Of a DNA stretch of 64,000 nucleotides, positions 24,715 to 63,628 are shown piece after piece. The position numbers were made by a program, and so were the translations under genes. A model generated the notes under the pieces. The model was not told where the DNA came from, searched no databases, and saw nothing but the letters and a program-made list of their open reading frames with translations. The stretch covers positions 1 to 64,000 of the forward strand of contig NZ_FMXC01000009.1 in the NCBI RefSeq assembly GCF_900103655.1, in the 5' to 3' direction. Within the stretch, counting starts at the first letter, position 1; every line of letters starts with the position of its first letter. This stretch comes from Lactobacillus kefiranofaciens (GTDB lineage Bacteria; Bacillota; Bacilli; Lactobacillales; Lactobacillaceae).

Positions 24715-24811
24715 ATCGTTTGATAAAGATGATTTCAAAAATAGCAATACAATAATAATGGCTGTATAATTAAAACTAAATTGATAATTTTTAATTACAG
24801 AAAGGGAAACA

Positions 24812-26289
24812 ATGTTTTACCCAGAATTAGACAAAGACGATTCACTCGCTTTGCACACTGATTTATATGAAATCAACATGATGTACACCTATTTCAAGAA
24901 GGGGATTGCTGATCGCAACGCTGTTTTTGAAACGTTTTACCGCCAAGAGCCATTTGGCAATGGTTATGCCGTATATGCGGGCTTGGAGCACGTCATTAGA
25001 TATTTAAAGAATTTAAAATTTAAAGAAAGCGACCTGCAATATCTGAAAGAGCAGGAAGGCTACGATGATGACTTTATAGACTATTTGCGCAATTTACAAC
25101 TAAAATTAACTATTCGCTCAATGAAGGAAGGGGAGTTGGTCTTTGCCAATGAACCAATTCTGCAAGTTGAAGGGCCACTAGCTCAATGTCAATTAGTAGA
25201 AACCGCAATTTTGAACATTATTAACTTCCAAACTTTGCTGGCTACTAAGGCTGCTCGAATCAAGTTAGCCGTTCAAGATGATAGTCTAATGGAATTTGGC
25301 TCCCGTCGTGCACAAGAAACGGATGCTGCTATCTGGGGTGCCCGGGCTGCTTATATTGGTGGCTTTGATTCGACTAGTAATGTTCGTGCTGGGAAGCTAT
25401 TTGGCATTCCAATTTCTGGTACGCATGCGCATGCTCTAGTTGAAGCTTTTGGTAGCGAATATGAAGCCTTTAAGGCATATGCGGAAACTCACAAGGACTG
25501 CGTCTTTTTAGTTGATACCTATGATACCGTTCGTAGCGGCGTGCCTAACGCAATCAGAGTAGCTAATGAGATGGGCGACAAGATTAATTTCTTAGGCGTG
25601 CGGATCGACTCTGGCGATATGGCCTATATGTCTAAGCAGGTTCGCAAAGAACTAGACGATGCTGGTTATCCTAATGCTAAGATTTTTGCTTCTAATGACT
25701 TGGATGAAAACACGATCACTAACTTGAAGATGCAGGGTGCTAAGATTGATGTCTGGGGCATTGGGACCAAGTATATTACTGCTTATGACCAGCCAGCTTT
25801 GGGAGCCGTCTACAAGCTAGTCGCAATGGAAGATGAAGTTCATGCCATGCGTGATACCTTGAAGATCTCTCTAATGCCATTAAGGTTTCAACTCCAGGCA
25901 AGAAGCAAGTATGGCGGATTAGCGCGAACACCGCTAAGAAGAATGAAGGCGATTGGGTATCTCGCTATAATGAAGATCCACGTAAGTTTGATGCCTTGTT
26001 CATGTTCCACCCACAATATACCTATATCAATAAGGTGGTTACGAATTACACTGCGATTCCGCTTTTACACGATATTTTTAAGGATGGTAAATTGGTTTAC
26101 CAACAGCCAAGTTTGGACGAGATTAAAAAGTTTTGTGTCCAAAATCTTGATGGCTTGTGGGATGAATATAAGCGTAGCTTGAATCCACAAGAATACCCGG
26201 TTGATTTGTCCCAAAACTTGTATGAAAGCAAGATGGATCTGATTCAAGATATTCGTCGTAAGATTAGAGAAAGAAGCATTGGTCGATGA
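24812..26289 (+). pseudogene. pncB: pncB, nicotinate phosphoribosyltransferase, frameshifted
   Basis: The first 355 or so residues (LHTDLYEINMMYTYFKKG, EFGSRRAQETDAAIWGARAA, SGTHAHALVEAFG, RIDSGDMAYMSKQVRK) are a normal nicotinate phosphoribosyltransferase. After LKIS the frame is lost near 25868-25875 and the remaining 130 residues continue one base off, ending SIGR at 26289. A missing T in a TCT repeat explains it. The truncated protein ends at 26182 with a nonsense tail. The enzyme makes nicotinate mononucleotide for NAD salvage. The gene overlaps nadE by 4 bases (ATGA). A sequencing error is possible. Confidence 0.8.
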
Positions 26290-55575: not shown

Positions 55576-57481
55576 ATGCAAACGGATAATGAAAAATACA
55601 ATGAAACTGTACAGCCGAACACTGCTTTCTTAAATGAACTTAAAGAAAAGCTGCCTGAATTCTTTACCAAGGAAGGATCTTTTGATTTAGATAAGTTTAG
55701 GAACCAACTAAAAGATAAAAATGTTAATGAGCTGAGTGAGGGCTATCAGCTAGATTTCATTGGTAAAGATTATGCGCGTCGTCAGGCAGGTGAAATGCCG
55801 AGTACTGTAATTGTCCCCGATGAAAAGCAAAATCAAGGTGAAGGTAAGAACAGTAAAAATTTATTCTTTACTGGGGATAATTTGGAAGTTTTACGCCATT
55901 TGCAAACGTCTTACCAAAATAAGATTGATGTTATCTACATTGATCCCCCTTACAACACAGGCAGCGACGGATTCGTATATCCGGATTCTTTTGAATACAG
56001 CGATGAGCAACTGAAAGACATGTTTGGCTTAGATGATGATCAGGTAGAGCGATTAAAGAGTATTCAAGGCAAGTCTAGTCACTCCGCTTGGTTGACATTT
56101 ATGTACCCAAGATTAGTACTCGCTAAAAGACTTTTAACTGACAAAGGTGTAATTTTTATTTCAATTGATGATAATGAACAAGCTGATTTACGCTTTGCTT
56201 GTGATGAAATATTTGGAGAAGCAAATTTAATATCGCAAATATGTCACAAATCCCGAGCATCGATTTCAAATGATAAGATTGTATCAAATAGCCATAATCA
56301 AATATTACTTTACGCAAAAAATGAAAGATTAGTATTTGATAGTAGAAAAGAAATTGGTACCACACCAAAACTCAATGGTTTTAATCATCAAGATGGAAAT
56401 GGTAAATATAAATTGGTACCTGTAGATGGTCCTGGCGGGGCCAAAAAAGGAAATCCATTTTATAATTTCTTAGGTGTATCCGGTTATTGGAGATTTTCTA
56501 AAGAACGTATGCAGAAAATGTATGATCAGGGATTAATAGTAAAAACTGATAATAACTTACAACAGAAATATTATTTATCAAAAGCTAAAAAGTCGAGGAA
56601 GACTGTTGATTCTTGGTGGGACGAAAAGTTTTATACTTCTTCTGCAACTTCTAGACTATCAAAGCTGATGGGGGGGGAATTACTTCGATACTCCTAAACC
56701 AGTAAGCTTAATAATTAAAATGTTACAGATGTTTACATGCTTCAATAAAAATGCTACTGTATTAGATTTTTTCGCAGGCTCATCTACAACCGCCGATGCG
56801 GTTATGCAGCTGAATTCTGAAGATGATGGTCATCGCAAATTCATCATGGTGCAACTTCCAGAGAAAACTTATCACATTAATAAGGATGGTAAAGAAGTAC
56901 CAACTAAGGGAGGCCAAGCGGCATATGATGCTGGCTTTAAATCCATCGACGAAATCTCTCGTGAACGTATTCGTCGTGCTGCCAAAAAGATTCGTGAAGA
57001 TAACGAATTAACTCTGCCAGAAAACTTTGATGGAAGTTTTAAACATTATCGAGTAGTAAAGCCAGTTAAACAAACGCTTGAAGAGATTGATGACTTTGAT
57101 CCAAATAATACTAATTTATTCACTAATATGGTGGATGGATTTTCTAGTCATGCCTTGGCCGTTGATGGGGATGCTACAGGTGAAGAAACCATTCTAGCAA
57201 CTTGGTTAGCTAAAGATGGCTATTCATTTGATGCTGATGTTGAAGAAATTAAATTTAGTAATTATACTGCTTACAAAGTTGAAGACAATCGTCTGTACTT
57301 AATTAATGAAGGTTGGAGAGCAGAGCAAACTAAAGAGCTGTTAAATAAACTTGGAACTTACCAATTAGAAATACAGTCTGTTGTACTATTTGGTTATTCA
57401 TTTAATGTAGCTGAACTACGTGAACTTGAAAATGGTTTGAAGCAATTAGACAGTAAAGTAACTTTAATCAAGAGGTACTAA
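55576..57481 (+). pseudogene. mod: type III DNA methyltransferase Mod, out of frame at a G8 tract
   Basis: A beta-class adenine-N6 methyltransferase of about 635 residues, read in two frames. The first part (365 residues) holds NLFFTGDNLEVLRHLQ, the catalytic IDPPYNTGSDGF (DPPY near residue 123), and the target-recognition region. A run of eight G at 56670-56677 then shifts to a stop at 56695-56697. With seven G it continues NYFDTPKPVSLI and then LDFFAGSSTTADAVMQLN, the SAM-binding motif, to 57481. As sequenced Mod lacks SAM binding and should be inactive. G tracts are classic slippage sites, so the gene may be phase-variable. RBS AGGAGAAA precedes ATG 55576. Confidence 0.85.
56670..56677 (+). 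repeat. G8 homopolymer inside mod
   Basis: Eight consecutive G following AT. Seven restores the full Mod frame, eight stops it 21 bases later. Only lengths of seven, four or ten give a complete protein, so gain or loss of one G switches it. Confidence 0.85.
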
Positions 57482-57484
57482 GCC

Positions 57485-60460
57485 ATGAAGATTAAATTAG
57501 AAACTTTACAACACCAAACCGCTGCCCTGGCAGCCATTGATAAAGCTTTTCCTGGTATGGACACGATGTCCAGTGATCCTAATGCTAATTACATTTATGC
57601 CAATCCTTTAATTAAATATCGTTATAACGATAAAGCTAATATCGATATCAAGATGGAAACAGGTACTGGCAAGACCTATGTCTATACCAGAATGATGTAT
57701 GATCTTCATCAAAAATATGGCTTATTTAAATTTGTGATTGCGGTGCCGAGCCCTAGCATTAAGGAGGGTACCCGTAGCTTTATTACCAGTGATTATGCTA
57801 AACAGCACTTTAGTGAATTCTACGAAAATACCCGGGTTCAATTAAACGTTATTAATGCGGGTGATTTTAGTGCACGTTCAGGACGACGAAACTTTCCTGC
57901 GCAATTATCAGAATTTGTCGAAGCTACGCGGCAAAATGCGAACCAAATTGAAGTCTTGTTGGTTAATCAGGGAATGCTGCACTCTAAGTCGATGCACCGT
58001 GATGACTATGATCAAACTTTACTCGGTGGTGAGACATCACCAATTAAAGCGATTGCAGCTACTCGACCAGTCGTTATTATTGACGAACCGCAACGTTTTC
58101 CACGTGGTAAAAAGTTTTATGAAGATATTGAAGCAATGAAGCCACAATTAATTGTGCGTTTCGGTGCTACTTTCCCAGAAACTACCACTGGTCGGGGCAA
58201 GAACAAAATCACTAAGATTGATTATTACCGTGGTGAACCTCAATTTAACTTGGACGCCGTGGCCAGTTTTAACCAAGGCCTGGTTAAGGGTATCGATATT
58301 GATTATCCTGATATGCCAGAAGAACAGGCAAATAACTGGTATAAAGTTAAGCAAGTCAAAGCTAAAGAATTAGTTTTGACCAAGGGTGGCAAAGACTATC
58401 CATTAAACGTAGGTGAAAATCTGGCTGATGTGGATGCTGGCTTTGAAGGCAATATTACTTACGCTGGTGGGACTGACCGGGAACTTTCCAATGGTTTGGC
58501 TTTATCCAAAGATATGAAATTGATCCCTGGTACCTTTGCGGAAAACTATCAGGATGAAATTATCTCACAGGCATTAGATTGCCACTTTAAGGCTGAGGAA
58601 GAAAACTTCCTACGTTTAAATTCAGGGGAGAATGCTCCAAAGATTAAGACTCTATCCTTATTCTTTATTGATAGTATTTCCAGCTTCCGTGGCGAAAACA
58701 GTGGTAAGGGTTGGCTTGCTCAGCACTTTGAGGATATTTTAACCAAGAAACTCAAAAAATTAATTGATCGTTTTGAATTGGCGATTGATGATCGGGAAAA
58801 AGAGTACCGCTCCTTCTTACAGGCTACCTTGAAGAGTTTGCAGTCAGAACATCAGGATGTTTATGCCGGTTACTTCAGTGAAGATCGAGGCAGTTCTGAT
58901 GCCGACATTCAGGCTGAAGTTGAAGACATTCTAAGTAATAAGGAAAAATTGCTCAGTTTTAAAGATAAAGATGGTAATTGGCTGACCCGGCGCTTTCTGT
59001 TTTCTAAGTGGACACTGCGTGAAGGTTGGGACAATCCAAATGTCTTCACAATTGCAAAGCTACGGACTTCTGGCTCTGAAATTAGCAAAATCCAGGAAGT
59101 TGGTCGGGGGTTACGGCTGCCTGTTGATGAAACCGGCCACCGTTTGAATCAGGATGAATGGCCAAGTCGCCTTTCCTTCCTAATCGGCTATGATGAACGA
59201 GACTTTGCTCAGAAACTTGTTGGTGAAATTAATGATGATTCCCCAATTCAATTAAACCAAGAAGAGTTAACTGATGACATGATCAAGCTGATTGTTAAAG
59301 CCAAACAAAAAACTGACCCTAAATTTGATGAGGATCAGTTGCTTGATGATTTGGATGATCATAATGTGATTACCCGTTCTAATAAGTTTAAGGACGAAGT
59401 AAAACTTGATGGTCAAACAATGTCTGGCTATGATGCTTTATGCCATCTTTACCCAGAATTAGTACAAGAAACTAAGGTCGCCAAGGATAAGGTTCGCGAT
59501 AAAAACTCGAAAGATAGCACAACGGTTAAATTACGGAAGCAAAACTGGCAGCAACTGAAGAATTTGTGGTTGCAGTTAGCTAAACGTCAAATGATTAGGT
59601 TTGATCCGTCAGTGAACAAGGATGCTGAAACGGTGGCTTGGAACGTATTTAACGATAGCGATAATAAGATTTTTGTTTTGCAATGTCCGCAAATGGTTCA
59701 TCAAGAGGTTGATACTACTAGCGGCAATGCTATTGTCAAAGAGACGCAAGCGGATTATAGTACTGAATATTTAACTATGAAATATGGTAAGTTTCTCAAA
59801 ATTTTGGCTAAGCAAACGGACTTGTCAGTTAACTTGTTGAACAACCTAATGATTAAAGCAATTAAGAGGTTAAGGAACAATACCAACTATATCAATGAAA
59901 AGACACTGGGAAACTTAATACAAACATTTAACAATCAATTTAACGAACGAATCAAAACTTCTTATAGTTATGAACCTTTGAAGTTTTCAGCCTCTACCTC
60001 GATTTATAATGCCAAGAAACATGAATTTGTAGATTCGATTCCTGCTAGTGTTCTGGGCGTATATCAGTCAAATTCGACTTCTGATGAAAAATACTTGTAT
60101 GATCGACCACCACTGCGTTATGACAGTGCGGATCCAGAATTGAAAATTTTGCAGCGCTCATATGGACCTAAGATCAGTGTTTTTGGCAAGCTACCAAAGA
60201 AAGCAATCAAAATTCCACGTTTCGATAACGGGACGACGACACCGGACTTTATTTTTAAGATTGAGCATGGTAGTAAGCCGATCTATTTGGTGATTGAAAC
60301 TAAAGCTGAAAACATGCGTTTAGGTGATGAAGAAATCCGGATTATTCAACAAAAGTACTTTGATCATTTAAAGGAATCTGGAGTTTACTATCAGATGGCT
60401 ACTAGTGAGCAAGAAGTACATGATTTGATCAATAAATTGGAGAATGGGGAGTTGAACTAA
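57485..60460 (+). CDS. res: type III restriction enzyme Res subunit
   Basis: 991-residue SF2 helicase-nuclease. Motifs: METGTGKTYVYTRMMY (Walker A, near 57-72), VIIDEPQRF (DEPQ form of motif II, near 200), FGATFPE (motif III type), WTLREGWDNPNVFTI and EVGRGLRLPVD (motifs V and VI). The C-terminal nuclease is TPDFIFKIE to LVIETKAEN (PD-ExK form, about 919-945). It starts 3 bases after mod. Res cuts only together with Mod, so it should be idle while mod is off. The frame is intact over its full length. Confidence 0.93.
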   Translation: MKIKLETLQHQTAALAAIDKAFPGMDTMSSDPNANYIYANPLIKYRYNDKANIDIKMETGTGKTYVYTRMMYDLHQKYGLFKFVIAVPSPSIKEGTRSFITSDYAKQHFSEFYENTRVQLNVINAGDFSARSGRRNFPAQLSEFVEATRQNANQIEVLLVNQGMLHSKSMHRDDYDQTLLGGETSPIKAIAATRPVVIIDEPQRFPRGKKFYEDIEAMKPQLIVRFGATFPETTTGRGKNKITKIDYYRGEPQFNLDAVASFNQGLVKGIDIDYPDMPEEQANNWYKVKQVKAKELVLTKGGKDYPLNVGENLADVDAGFEGNITYAGGTDRELSNGLALSKDMKLIPGTFAENYQDEIISQALDCHFKAEEENFLRLNSGENAPKIKTLSLFFIDSISSFRGENSGKGWLAQHFEDILTKKLKKLIDRFELAIDDREKEYRSFLQATLKSLQSEHQDVYAGYFSEDRGSSDADIQAEVEDILSNKEKLLSFKDKDGNWLTRRFLFSKWTLREGWDNPNVFTIAKLRTSGSEISKIQEVGRGLRLPVDETGHRLNQDEWPSRLSFLIGYDERDFAQKLVGEINDDSPIQLNQEELTDDMIKLIVKAKQKTDPKFDEDQLLDDLDDHNVITRSNKFKDEVKLDGQTMSGYDALCHLYPELVQETKVAKDKVRDKNSKDSTTVKLRKQNWQQLKNLWLQLAKRQMIRFDPSVNKDAETVAWNVFNDSDNKIFVLQCPQMVHQEVDTTSGNAIVKETQADYSTEYLTMKYGKFLKILAKQTDLSVNLLNNLMIKAIKRLRNNTNYINEKTLGNLIQTFNNQFNERIKTSYSYEPLKFSASTSIYNAKKHEFVDSIPASVLGVYQSNSTSDEKYLYDRPPLRYDSADPELKILQRSYGPKISVFGKLPKKAIKIPRFDNGTTTPDFIFKIEHGSKPIYLVIETKAENMRLGDEEIRIIQQKYFDHLKESGVYYQMATSEQEVHDLINKLENGELN

Positions 60461-60461
60461 A

Positions 60462-61754
60462 ATGTTGTCGCTAATCGAATTAGCTAAAGAGGGAAAGTTA
60501 GAGAAAACTGGTGCCAAGCCCAAGTTACCGATTAAGGTTGATGGGGTTAGCTCTGAAACGCTGGATGTTTACAAGATTCCACTAGAATATGTCTATTACA
60601 ATGACAAAAATGGTCGGATTGCAACCGGTATTTCACAGTATCAGGATGAATTGAATCCAGCCAATGATCAAGAAGATCCACAATATAACAATTTTGTTGC
60701 TAAATTAATCGAACAAGACAATTCATCAGCCTTGAAGCGGACAGAAAAATCGATACAAGAGTCTGGTCAGCAAGTTTATGGGTACGTACTGGATGACGGA
60801 CGGATTGTAGATGGCAATCGTCGCTATACGGCATTACGTAATATTCGTCAATCTACTGGTAGGACAGTATATTTTGAAGCTGTTGTTTTGCCGTTTTCAT
60901 ATGGTAACACTACTGAGCGTGCTAAGATCAAAAAGCTAGAGTTAGCCATTCAGATGGGTGTTGAAGAGCGCTAAGATTATGATCCAGTTGATCTGGCTGT
61001 GGATATTTATCAAACCACTAGCGGTGATGATCCAATTATGACTCAGGCCGATTACGCAGCTGATTCTCATATGCGACCAACAGAAGTTAAAAAATATTAT
61101 GATGGTGCGGTCTATATGAAGAAGTTTCTGGAATTTATTGGTGCTTCAGAGAATAATTTCAACATTATCAAGGAAAGTAAAGTGTGGTCACTTTTCTATG
61201 AAATGGGTAAATCGTTATCTAAGAATTTTGGCGACGATCCTGAATCTCAAGTTCGCAAGAATGAAACGATGAATTCATATTTTGGCGTTATTCTTTATCA
61301 AATTCATGTTGGCGTTAGTGGTAATACAGCCAGGACTCATATTCGTGAATACGGTAAAAATATCGTTAATAGTGTTGACAATGAAGATTTCAATGATGAT
61401 GTAGCTGACATGATTGATGATCTTTCAGAATCACTTCAGGACGAGGAAATTCACACTACCTCTGATCTGATGCAGAGTTTGACGGATGAAAACGAAACCG
61501 TTGAAGAGCTTGGTGATACCTTTGACACCTATATGCGAAATGCCCGTAATAGTGAGTCTGTAGATAAGTTCATCCGCAATATAAAGCAGAATGTGAAGTA
61601 CTACCACGACTTAAATGAAGATGGTGGCCTGATTGGGAGTCTTCGTTACAACGAGGTTAGTGAAGATCAACTAAAGGAACTGCAGAAATATATGCGTGAC
61701 CTAAACCAATTTAGTAAGGAGTTGTTCAGCAAGTATGGGGATGAAATCAGATAA
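60462..61754 (+). pseudogene. ParB-like domain protein with an in-frame stop
   Basis: About 430 residues when read through. The N-terminal ParB/Srx-like domain includes IPLEYVYYNDKNGRIATGI and GRIVDGNRRYTALRNI (near 114-129), the DGN-RR-A-R pattern of that fold, which can bind CTP or cut DNA. The C-terminal half is acidic and helical. A TAA at 60972-60974 ends it after 170 residues; DYDPVDLAVDIYQ follows in the same frame, so CAA to TAA is likely (VEER-Q-DYDP). It starts one base after res and overlaps the SNF2 gene by 20 bases. Confidence 0.75.
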
Positions 61755-63628
61755 TCCAATCATTATCAAGAATGATGACGGCTTGTTTCAGCTGGTAGAT
61801 GATGATCACCATACACTGGAAACCAAGGTTGCCCAACGCGGATTAGATATCTTTGCTCCATATTTTAAGGATCCTGAGCAACGTAATTTTAAGGAAGACT
61901 TGACTTATGTTCAGTTGCTGGAGCTAGTCAAAAAGCTTAATCGTCGACTACAACGAAAAGGATTACCAGAAGTCCAAACTAGTAGCAAATTCGATCGGTT
62001 TGTGCAGCAACGCCAATACTACATCAAAGAGCAAAGCCAGGCGGGGTTAACAATTAAAGACGGTGATCCTCGTTGGCAGCAAGAGTTTGACAATTTTAGG
62101 GCGATTGTCAGTCAAGAATTTACCCGGTCATTAAAGCCTGAACAAGAAAAGGCCAGCTTCTTCATGACTATCATGAAGCGAGCTGCTAACTTTTCGGTGC
62201 CAGGTGCTGGCAAAACTGCTATGATGTATGGCACTTTTGCTTACTTATCTAGTCCTAGAGTTAATGAAGTTGATAAGCTGTTAGTCGTTTCTCCATTGAA
62301 TGCTTTTGCTGCATGGCGGACAGAATTCCAGGAGGTTTTTGGGTCAAAGCGTGAACTTCATTATCTCAATATGCGGGACAAAAAGTACAACAATAATGTC
62401 GGAGCCGTTAAGCATGATTGGATTAAGTCAGATGTGATCACGATCAACTACGAAGCCTTGCAGAGCAAATTAAATATCATCAATGACTTGTTGGACTCGA
62501 AAACGATGCTGGTTTTTGATGAGGTTCACCGGGTTAAAGGCGTCGGTGGCCAGCGAGCTAAAGCTGCTCTCAGTCTCAGTAGGGCACCACATTATCGATA
62601 TGTGTTAACTGGAACACCGATTCCCAATGGCTTTAGAGATATTTATAATTTCTTGCATTTAATGTATCCTGATGAATACTCTTCATTCTTTGCCTGGGAT
62701 CTGACTACTCTTAATAATATTGATCCAGAAGATGTTAATAAGAAGTTATCACCATTTTTCTGGCGGACCAACAAGCAGGATCTTCAGGTTCCTAAACCGG
62801 ATCCAGATATTATTAAAGAAGTAGCTCCATCAAAAAATCAGGAGCTGCTGGCACAGGCGATTTATGAAAATAAAAACGGAATATTGGCGACCTTTATCAG
62901 GTTACTTCAGGCTTCGACAAACCCGGAGTTGCTGAGCACTAACATCAACTATAAAGAATCAGGACTGGTAGATGCTGATTCTGGAGTGTGGGATAAACAG
63001 ACGGCCACGGTTGAAAAAGAGAATTTCAGTAGCGGAGAAGCTTATAAGAAATATGATTTAACTAAGATAGAGGCGCCTAAGTTTGAAATGGGCATTGATC
63101 TGATTGATAAGCTGGTCAGTCAAGGCAAAAAGGTCCTGGTGTGGGGTATGTTTGTCGGTACTATGCAAAAGATTACTGATACTCTTAATGGCATGGGCAT
63201 TAAAACTACCTTGGTTTATGGAGCGACACCAAAACAGGATCGAGAAGGAATGATTAATAAATTCCGGACCGGTGATGCACAAGTACTGGTATCGAATCCT
63301 AACACTTTAGGGGGAATCCATTTCGTTGCATCAAACTGTACACGACGCGGTTTACTTCGAATACAACTTTAATTGGACCTTCATGTTGCAGTCCCGAGAT
63401 CGGATTAACCGTCTGGGACTACCAGCAAATCAATACACAAGGTACTACTATTTGATGACCAAGGGCGATGTTGCACATATGGGCTTTATCGACAGGATAG
63501 TTTACAAGAAACTAAAAGATAAAGAAAAAGTGATGCTGGATGCAATCGATGGTCAGCTGCTTGTTCCTGAATATACTGACGATTACTTGCAGGAAGTTAA
63601 GGACATTGTGATGGGGAGGTATAAGTGA
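61735..63628 (+). pseudogene. SNF2/DEAD-family helicase, frameshifted at a G5 run
   Basis: Superfamily 2 ATPase of about 630 residues. SVPGAGKTAMMYGTFAYL (Walker A, near 155-163), VVSPLNAFAAWRTEF (Ia), MLVFDEVHRVKG (DEVH motif II, near 260), VLTGTPIPNG (III), and a helicase C domain with VLVWGMFVGTM and VLVSNPNTLG. There five G (63310-63314) shift the frame and it ends at 63372; with four G it reads ESISLHQTVHDAVYFEYNFNW and then MLQSRDRINRLGL (motif VI) to 63628. It lacks any nuclease domain. The expected partners are ParB-like and the next gene. Confidence 0.82.
63310..63314 (+). repeat. G5 run at the SNF2 frameshift
   Basis: Five G where four restores the frame. This is short for an active slippage site but shares base and direction of change (+1 G) with the mod tract. 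Confidence 0.6.

Follow-up and report, generated by a model that had tools for sequence, protein, structure and literature searches.

A G8 run places a type III methyltransferase gene of Lactobacillus kefiranofaciens out of frame: recent loss or phase-variable switch?

Repeat tracts in described type III methyltransferase genes

The repeat of the type III methyltransferase gene (mod) modH in Helicobacter pylori is reportedly a G tract, while the repeat unit of modS in Streptococcus suis is said to be longer than a single nucleotide. Like the mod gene analysed here, modH carries a homopolymer run in its reading frame. However, H. pylori is Gram-negative, and both switching and a phasevarion have been reported for modH (PMC5700931, PMC3230613), whereas the present gene is known from sequence alone. 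The modS gene of S. suis is closer in that a Gram-positive type III mod carries a repeat in its reading frame, and it is described as the first methyltransferase of a Gram-positive bacterium to be switched by a repeat; unlike here, variable tract lengths have been shown for it (PMC6265453, as excerpted). In Mycoplasma mycoides subsp. capri, a coding-region repeat likewise leads to early termination of a type III mod, although this repeat consists of 12 AG dinucleotides and the lineage is a different one (excerpt of PMC3498834). Bifidobacterium breve UCC2003, a gut commensal, resembles the present case in its in-frame G tract, but there the tract lies in surface pilus genes, and a mixture of lengths was detected by Maximum Depth Sequencing (PMC9187656, accessible part).

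As quoted in the accessible text of PMC7394358, 17.4% of type III mods carry repeats. A cut-off of 7 has been applied to G/C tracts in Campylobacter, and homologues of phase-variable genes in that genus are often without the tract (excerpt of PMC6321876); excerpts of related literature are found under PMC12707154, PMC13076061, PMC3231926, and PMC11868660. No report of a G-tract-switched methyltransferase in lactobacilli was recognised among the papers listed in the literature searches, although the main survey of repeats in type III mods (10.1093/nar/gky192) may name some.

The G8 run and the operon of mod

The window analysed here comprises 64,000 nucleotides (nt) of contig C54 in a draft genome of L. 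kefiranofaciens (G000; 2.28 Mb, 84 contigs), and all operon coordinates refer to its + strand. Reading the sequence together with its open reading frames (ORFs) places a run of eight G at 56670..56677, inside a type III mod gene that is thereby put out of frame. The first frame runs from an ATG at 55576 to a stop at 56695-56697, soon after the G run, and this 5' part (55576..56697) carries the N-terminal region, the DPPY motif (IDPPYNTG), and the target-recognition region. The 3' part (56669..57481) lies in the next frame, which is open between about 56669 and 57481. It carries the SAM motif (DFFAGSSTT) and the EcoP15I-type C-terminal domain, ahead of both of which the first frame stops. Of the 657 positions in a single PADLOC type III methyltransferase model, the 5' part matches 1-390 and the 3' part 408-657; jointly, in two frames, the pieces present the type III order of DPPY motif, recognition region, SAM motif, and EcoP15I-type C-terminal domain. 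The initial annotation had stated that mod holds one G too many and that eight G yield a product without the SAM motif. The second statement agrees with the end of the first frame before DFFAGSSTT, and the first is borne out by the closest allele found (L086), which is in frame across the site and one nt shorter, with GGA GGA in place of the run.

Adjacent to mod lies res (57485..60460), encoding the restriction endonuclease subunit of 991 amino acids (aa) expected of a type III system. It is open, contains ResIII and RE_endonuc domains, and scores above the cut-off of NCBIfam NF012027. Two further genes belong to the operon, and their lesions were read against genome G014, which is 82% identical in nucleotides across 7.2 kb and in which both are open. 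Gene 3 (60462..61754) has an in-frame TAA at 60972-60974 where G014 has CAA, which is a substitution and not a homopolymer indel; the G014 copy gave no family match in Pfam, NCBIfam or PADLOC. In the SNF2-type helicase gene (61735..63628), a G run near 63310 holds one base more than its G014 counterpart, which shifts the frame. If the bases are right, mod, gene 3, and the helicase gene would together constitute more than one independent inactivating lesion, as expected of a decaying operon. As a separate observation, gene 3 is broken as well in L073, L079, L085, and perhaps L086.

Relaxed constraint, which would also be expected of decay, was not seen in 12 Nei-Gojobori comparisons of the sequence before and after each lesion (four more found no counterpart). 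The dN/dS values were 0.012-0.099, and 0.018-0.099 in the compared pieces of the two mod halves, both of which are thus conserved; with dS at 0.6-2.1, near saturation, these values are rough and blind to recent decay. As the sequence around the lesions is conserved, the lesions are either recent or base errors.

Recent loss, maintained switch or base error

Recent loss at a slippage-prone spot is favoured here, with a probability of about 0.5, over a maintained switch and over a base error. Two GGG codons in a Met-Gly-Gly stretch may by chance have made a G7 run prone to slippage, in which a single slip to G8 would have inactivated Mod by ending it before the SAM motif. Without Mod, the Res of a type III enzyme should neither methylate nor cleave. 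A cell with an open res and no Mod would then probably hold a silent system that does it no harm, and a further slip could in principle restore the frame. Programmed or transcriptional slippage might conceivably rescue it as well. We infer that the change is real, recent, and made by slippage, and that it is not kept as a switch.

The closest alleles weigh in favour of loss. L086, found on a contig from a viral collection, shares 92% aa identity with the window mod over residues 1-367, including the recognition region, and 86% nucleotide identity over 5.9 kb, and at the tract site it reads ATG GGA GGA AAT. Its own mod is broken by another lesion, a nonsense TAG, and its res is open. Four other mods with Met-Gly-Gly, from three genomes (two copies in G037, one in G008, and L130), have mixed Gly codons and no long run. 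A tract kept in close homologues, which is not obligatory for phase variation, was thus not found in L086 or in these four. The absence of the tract from L086 counts only mildly against a switch, and the argument for loss is weakened accordingly, since homologues of truly phase-variable Campylobacter genes commonly lack the tract (PMC6321876, in the excerpt available).

The state of the operon and of the genome points the same way. Gene 3 and the helicase gene are broken in the window and open in G014, and these lesions fit erosion better than a contingency locus that is being maintained, although they could themselves be base errors. The mod G8 is the only G/C run of at least six in the window. 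However, a Markov chain based on the dinucleotides of the window predicts 0.235 G/C runs of at least eight per window, so the one observed is not beyond chance, and the same rate scaled to 2.28 Mb gives about eight runs of eight, so the three seen in the genome are no excess. These three lie in mod, in a membrane gene (G000:C51:26350-26357), which we take to be DUF441-like, and, in frame, in a gene for a surface protein with a YSIRK-like signal. The run in the DUF441-like gene (L031) is two nt longer than in 18 of 18 aligned relatives. Inspected by eye, the five G7 runs of the genome look like ribosome-binding sites or sit in a tRNA-like stretch. Three mutS-like genes, of which the top match has a frame of 865 aa, and one mutL-like gene of 634 aa are also present in the genome. 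At least three other genes are split, namely a LacI-type regulator gene, the DUF441-like gene, and, on the contig of the window, pncB; the mismatch repair genes and the split genes likewise favour loss. On the other side, GGG accounts for 99 of the 920 Gly codons in the long ORFs of the window, which gives a chance of only about 1% for two GGG in a row. Both mod halves are conserved, as would be expected also of a switch.

The strongest alternative is a truly phase-variable mod, in which the tract would be kept because changes in its length turn methylation and restriction on and off across the population, perhaps together with a phasevarion. This is unlikely, although several observations speak for it. 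The tract lies inside the reading frame as a simple repeat long enough to slip, at or above published cut-offs (excerpt of PMC6321876), and no other long G run occurs in the window. Judged from L086 and from the two frames of the pieces, one length gives an open gene and another a truncated one. In addition, both mod halves are conserved while res is open. In a table of 34 loci, where three pairs (L088/G014, L069/L089, and L091/L094) look like the same locus twice, a split mod stands beside an open res for the window, for G014 (L088), and for L086. That the mod of G014 is out of frame also counts for loss; its ORFs overlap in a stretch with a G6 run, at which the break presumably lies. As for the other tabulated loci, mod is broken in G034, where only 99 aa of res fall within the stretch; both genes are broken in L075, L085, and L097; res is interrupted and mod open in L098; no res is seen in L071, L092, and L095, for L071 and L092 because the contig ends; and in the remainder mod is open, as is res as far as the stretch reaches.

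Against a maintained switch stand the tract-free closest allele, the two further lesions in the operon, and the length of the run, which at G8 is at the low end of the range. The contig moreover holds a 1-nt deletion in a core gene (pncB), and the mutS- and mutL-like genes have long open frames. Of the phase variation proposed in the initial annotation, two elements stand, the frame change at a G run prone to slippage and what this does to Mod; a maintained switch does not follow, given L086 and the other lesions. Same-species or near-identical strains were sought for a comparison of tract lengths, and none were found in a collection that has one genome per species and may omit near records. 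A DNA pattern spanning the tract had a single match in viral contigs (L099), which was dissimilar to the window.

A base-calling or assembly error, with mod in frame in the organism and one G too many in the draft, is supported by pncB (nicotinate phosphoribosyltransferase; window 24788-26286). This gene lacks one nt near 25869 relative to 6 of 6 aligned relatives; its DNA has a single match in the genome, the family model covers only the part before the break, and it is either a pseudogene or a base error. The helicase gene, too, has its extra base in a G run. Similar errors are visible elsewhere, as in plasmid mod L097, which is broken by three homopolymer indels relative to L098, read here as probable base errors (plasmid mods L093-L096 and L098 are open), and in the drafts L075 and L085 with their breaks in mod and res. 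A coding-potential scan, which missed the mod and helicase breaks and so gives a lower bound that includes false positives, raised 16 frame-change flags in the G000 sample against 9 in that of G014. Family searches supported a split LacI-type regulator among 20 ORFs from 11 of the 16 G000 flags and a split AraC-type regulator among 10 ORFs from 5 of the 9 G014 flags, and in G000 a nitroreductase (first half searched) and a mucin-binding protein are possibly split as well. Frameshifts thus seem somewhat more frequent in G000, whether from real decay or from base error. Against an error, a sample of 399 kb of G000 that includes regions picked for G runs has 47 G5/C5 runs, of which 28 are safely within long ORFs and one is at an ORF junction; three runs of at least five (C5, C7, and the mod G8) lie at junctions, as counted by a scan that misses breaks beside short ORFs, such as that of the helicase. 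Also against it, the 3 kb of res are unbroken, and the gene 3 lesion is a substitution and not a homopolymer indel. An error at the mod G8 is the least probable of the three readings, a little behind a switch.

G tracts in restriction-modification genes of related lactobacilli

Within the genus, 14 of the 75 genomes have a DNA match to the window mod. Eight of these 14 supplied the ten mods that were judged, with six in frame and four broken; the matches in the other six genomes were short, and two of them came from more distant mods that were left unjudged. G runs of at least eight occur in three of the ten judged mods, that of the window and both mods of L. psittaci DSM 15354 (L082:6001-12891). 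The latter are arranged in tandem ahead of one open res, the one with G8 being in frame and the one with G9 out of frame. They are homologous to the window mod, from the same genus, and with runs of similar length, one in frame and one out. The position of the tract differs, since both paralogues have it at nucleotide 91, within an inserted stretch of Gly near codon 31, and in the window it lies on the conserved Gly-Gly near codon 366. The N parts of the pair are 82% and the C parts 67% identical, while the recognition regions are unrelated (33% over 39 aa, E 0.21), making the tandem mods a candidate two-specificity switch. Near copies of the L. psittaci mods were not found by megablast against plasmids.

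At the level of the family, 58 of 397 sampled genomes match mod at E ≤1e-30. Among 60 fetched mod regions, taken from 67 drawn up and in part overlapping, a single one has a run of at least eight, which counts against a switch in the window. This is the G11 of a Limosilactobacillus mod (L186:1315, G437), which is split out of frame at the tract and preceded by a stretch that in part consists of N. L. reuteri plasmid homologues read EVGADEPF at this place, with no G run, and the L. reuteri plasmid mods L317-L321 contain no G run of at least five (the frame of L320 was left out). Other types of restriction-modification gene are affected as well. A type IIG gene of L. colini (L195, tract 2001-2010) is split at G10, with no near copies found by blastn against plasmids, and a C5-methyltransferase gene of G018 (L210:2001) is split at G8, with none found by megablast against phages. 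All of these relatives are represented by single assemblies and share the doubt about bases that attaches to the window. Tracts of 8 to 11 G in methyltransferase genes of other lactobacilli nevertheless lend some weight to a switch in the window and tell against loss, and as candidates for restriction-modification genes switched by a G tract, those of the relatives are stronger than the window mod itself.

It could be expected that G tracts in the genus sit in genes, but this rule failed. From 60 regions picked among the matches listed and covering 18 of the 39 matching genomes, 64 tracts of G8 or longer were collected, of which 21 lie in long ORFs or at their junctions and 43 in neither, under an ORF rule that places some surface-protein tracts (e.g., L190) in "neither" and scores the split L210 C5-methyltransferase as in frame. 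The tracts thus show no concentration within genes, a result that speaks against a simple "contingency genome" and against a switch in the window mod. Among the surface-protein genes with a YSIRK-like signal, L192, L193, L197, L220, L224, and L240 have early tracts of G8-G10, which are in frame in three of the genes and at a frame junction in the other three; all six are candidate switchable adhesins. Two similar HTH regulator genes from different species (L214 and L232, start MTIGEALK) have tracts at about the same place, one a G8 in frame and the other a G10 at a frame junction.

A wider proposal is that lactobacilli switch restriction-modification genes by G-tract slippage, with the window mod among them, on at G7 and off at G8, and with a choice between two mods in L. 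psittaci. It is rather unlikely as a whole. If it were true, independent slips at the two L. psittaci mods, which share one res, could select either specificity, both, or neither. If switching is real in the window mod, a lactobacillus population would have a mixed methylome and mixed phage resistance, with a bearing on transformation, phage control, and strain typing. If no switching occurs, the case is a caution against reading phase variation from one isolated G8 in a draft genome, where such a run carries little weight as evidence. In both cases, better targets emerge from the comparison, namely the mods of L. psittaci, the Limosilactobacillus mod, and the L. colini gene.
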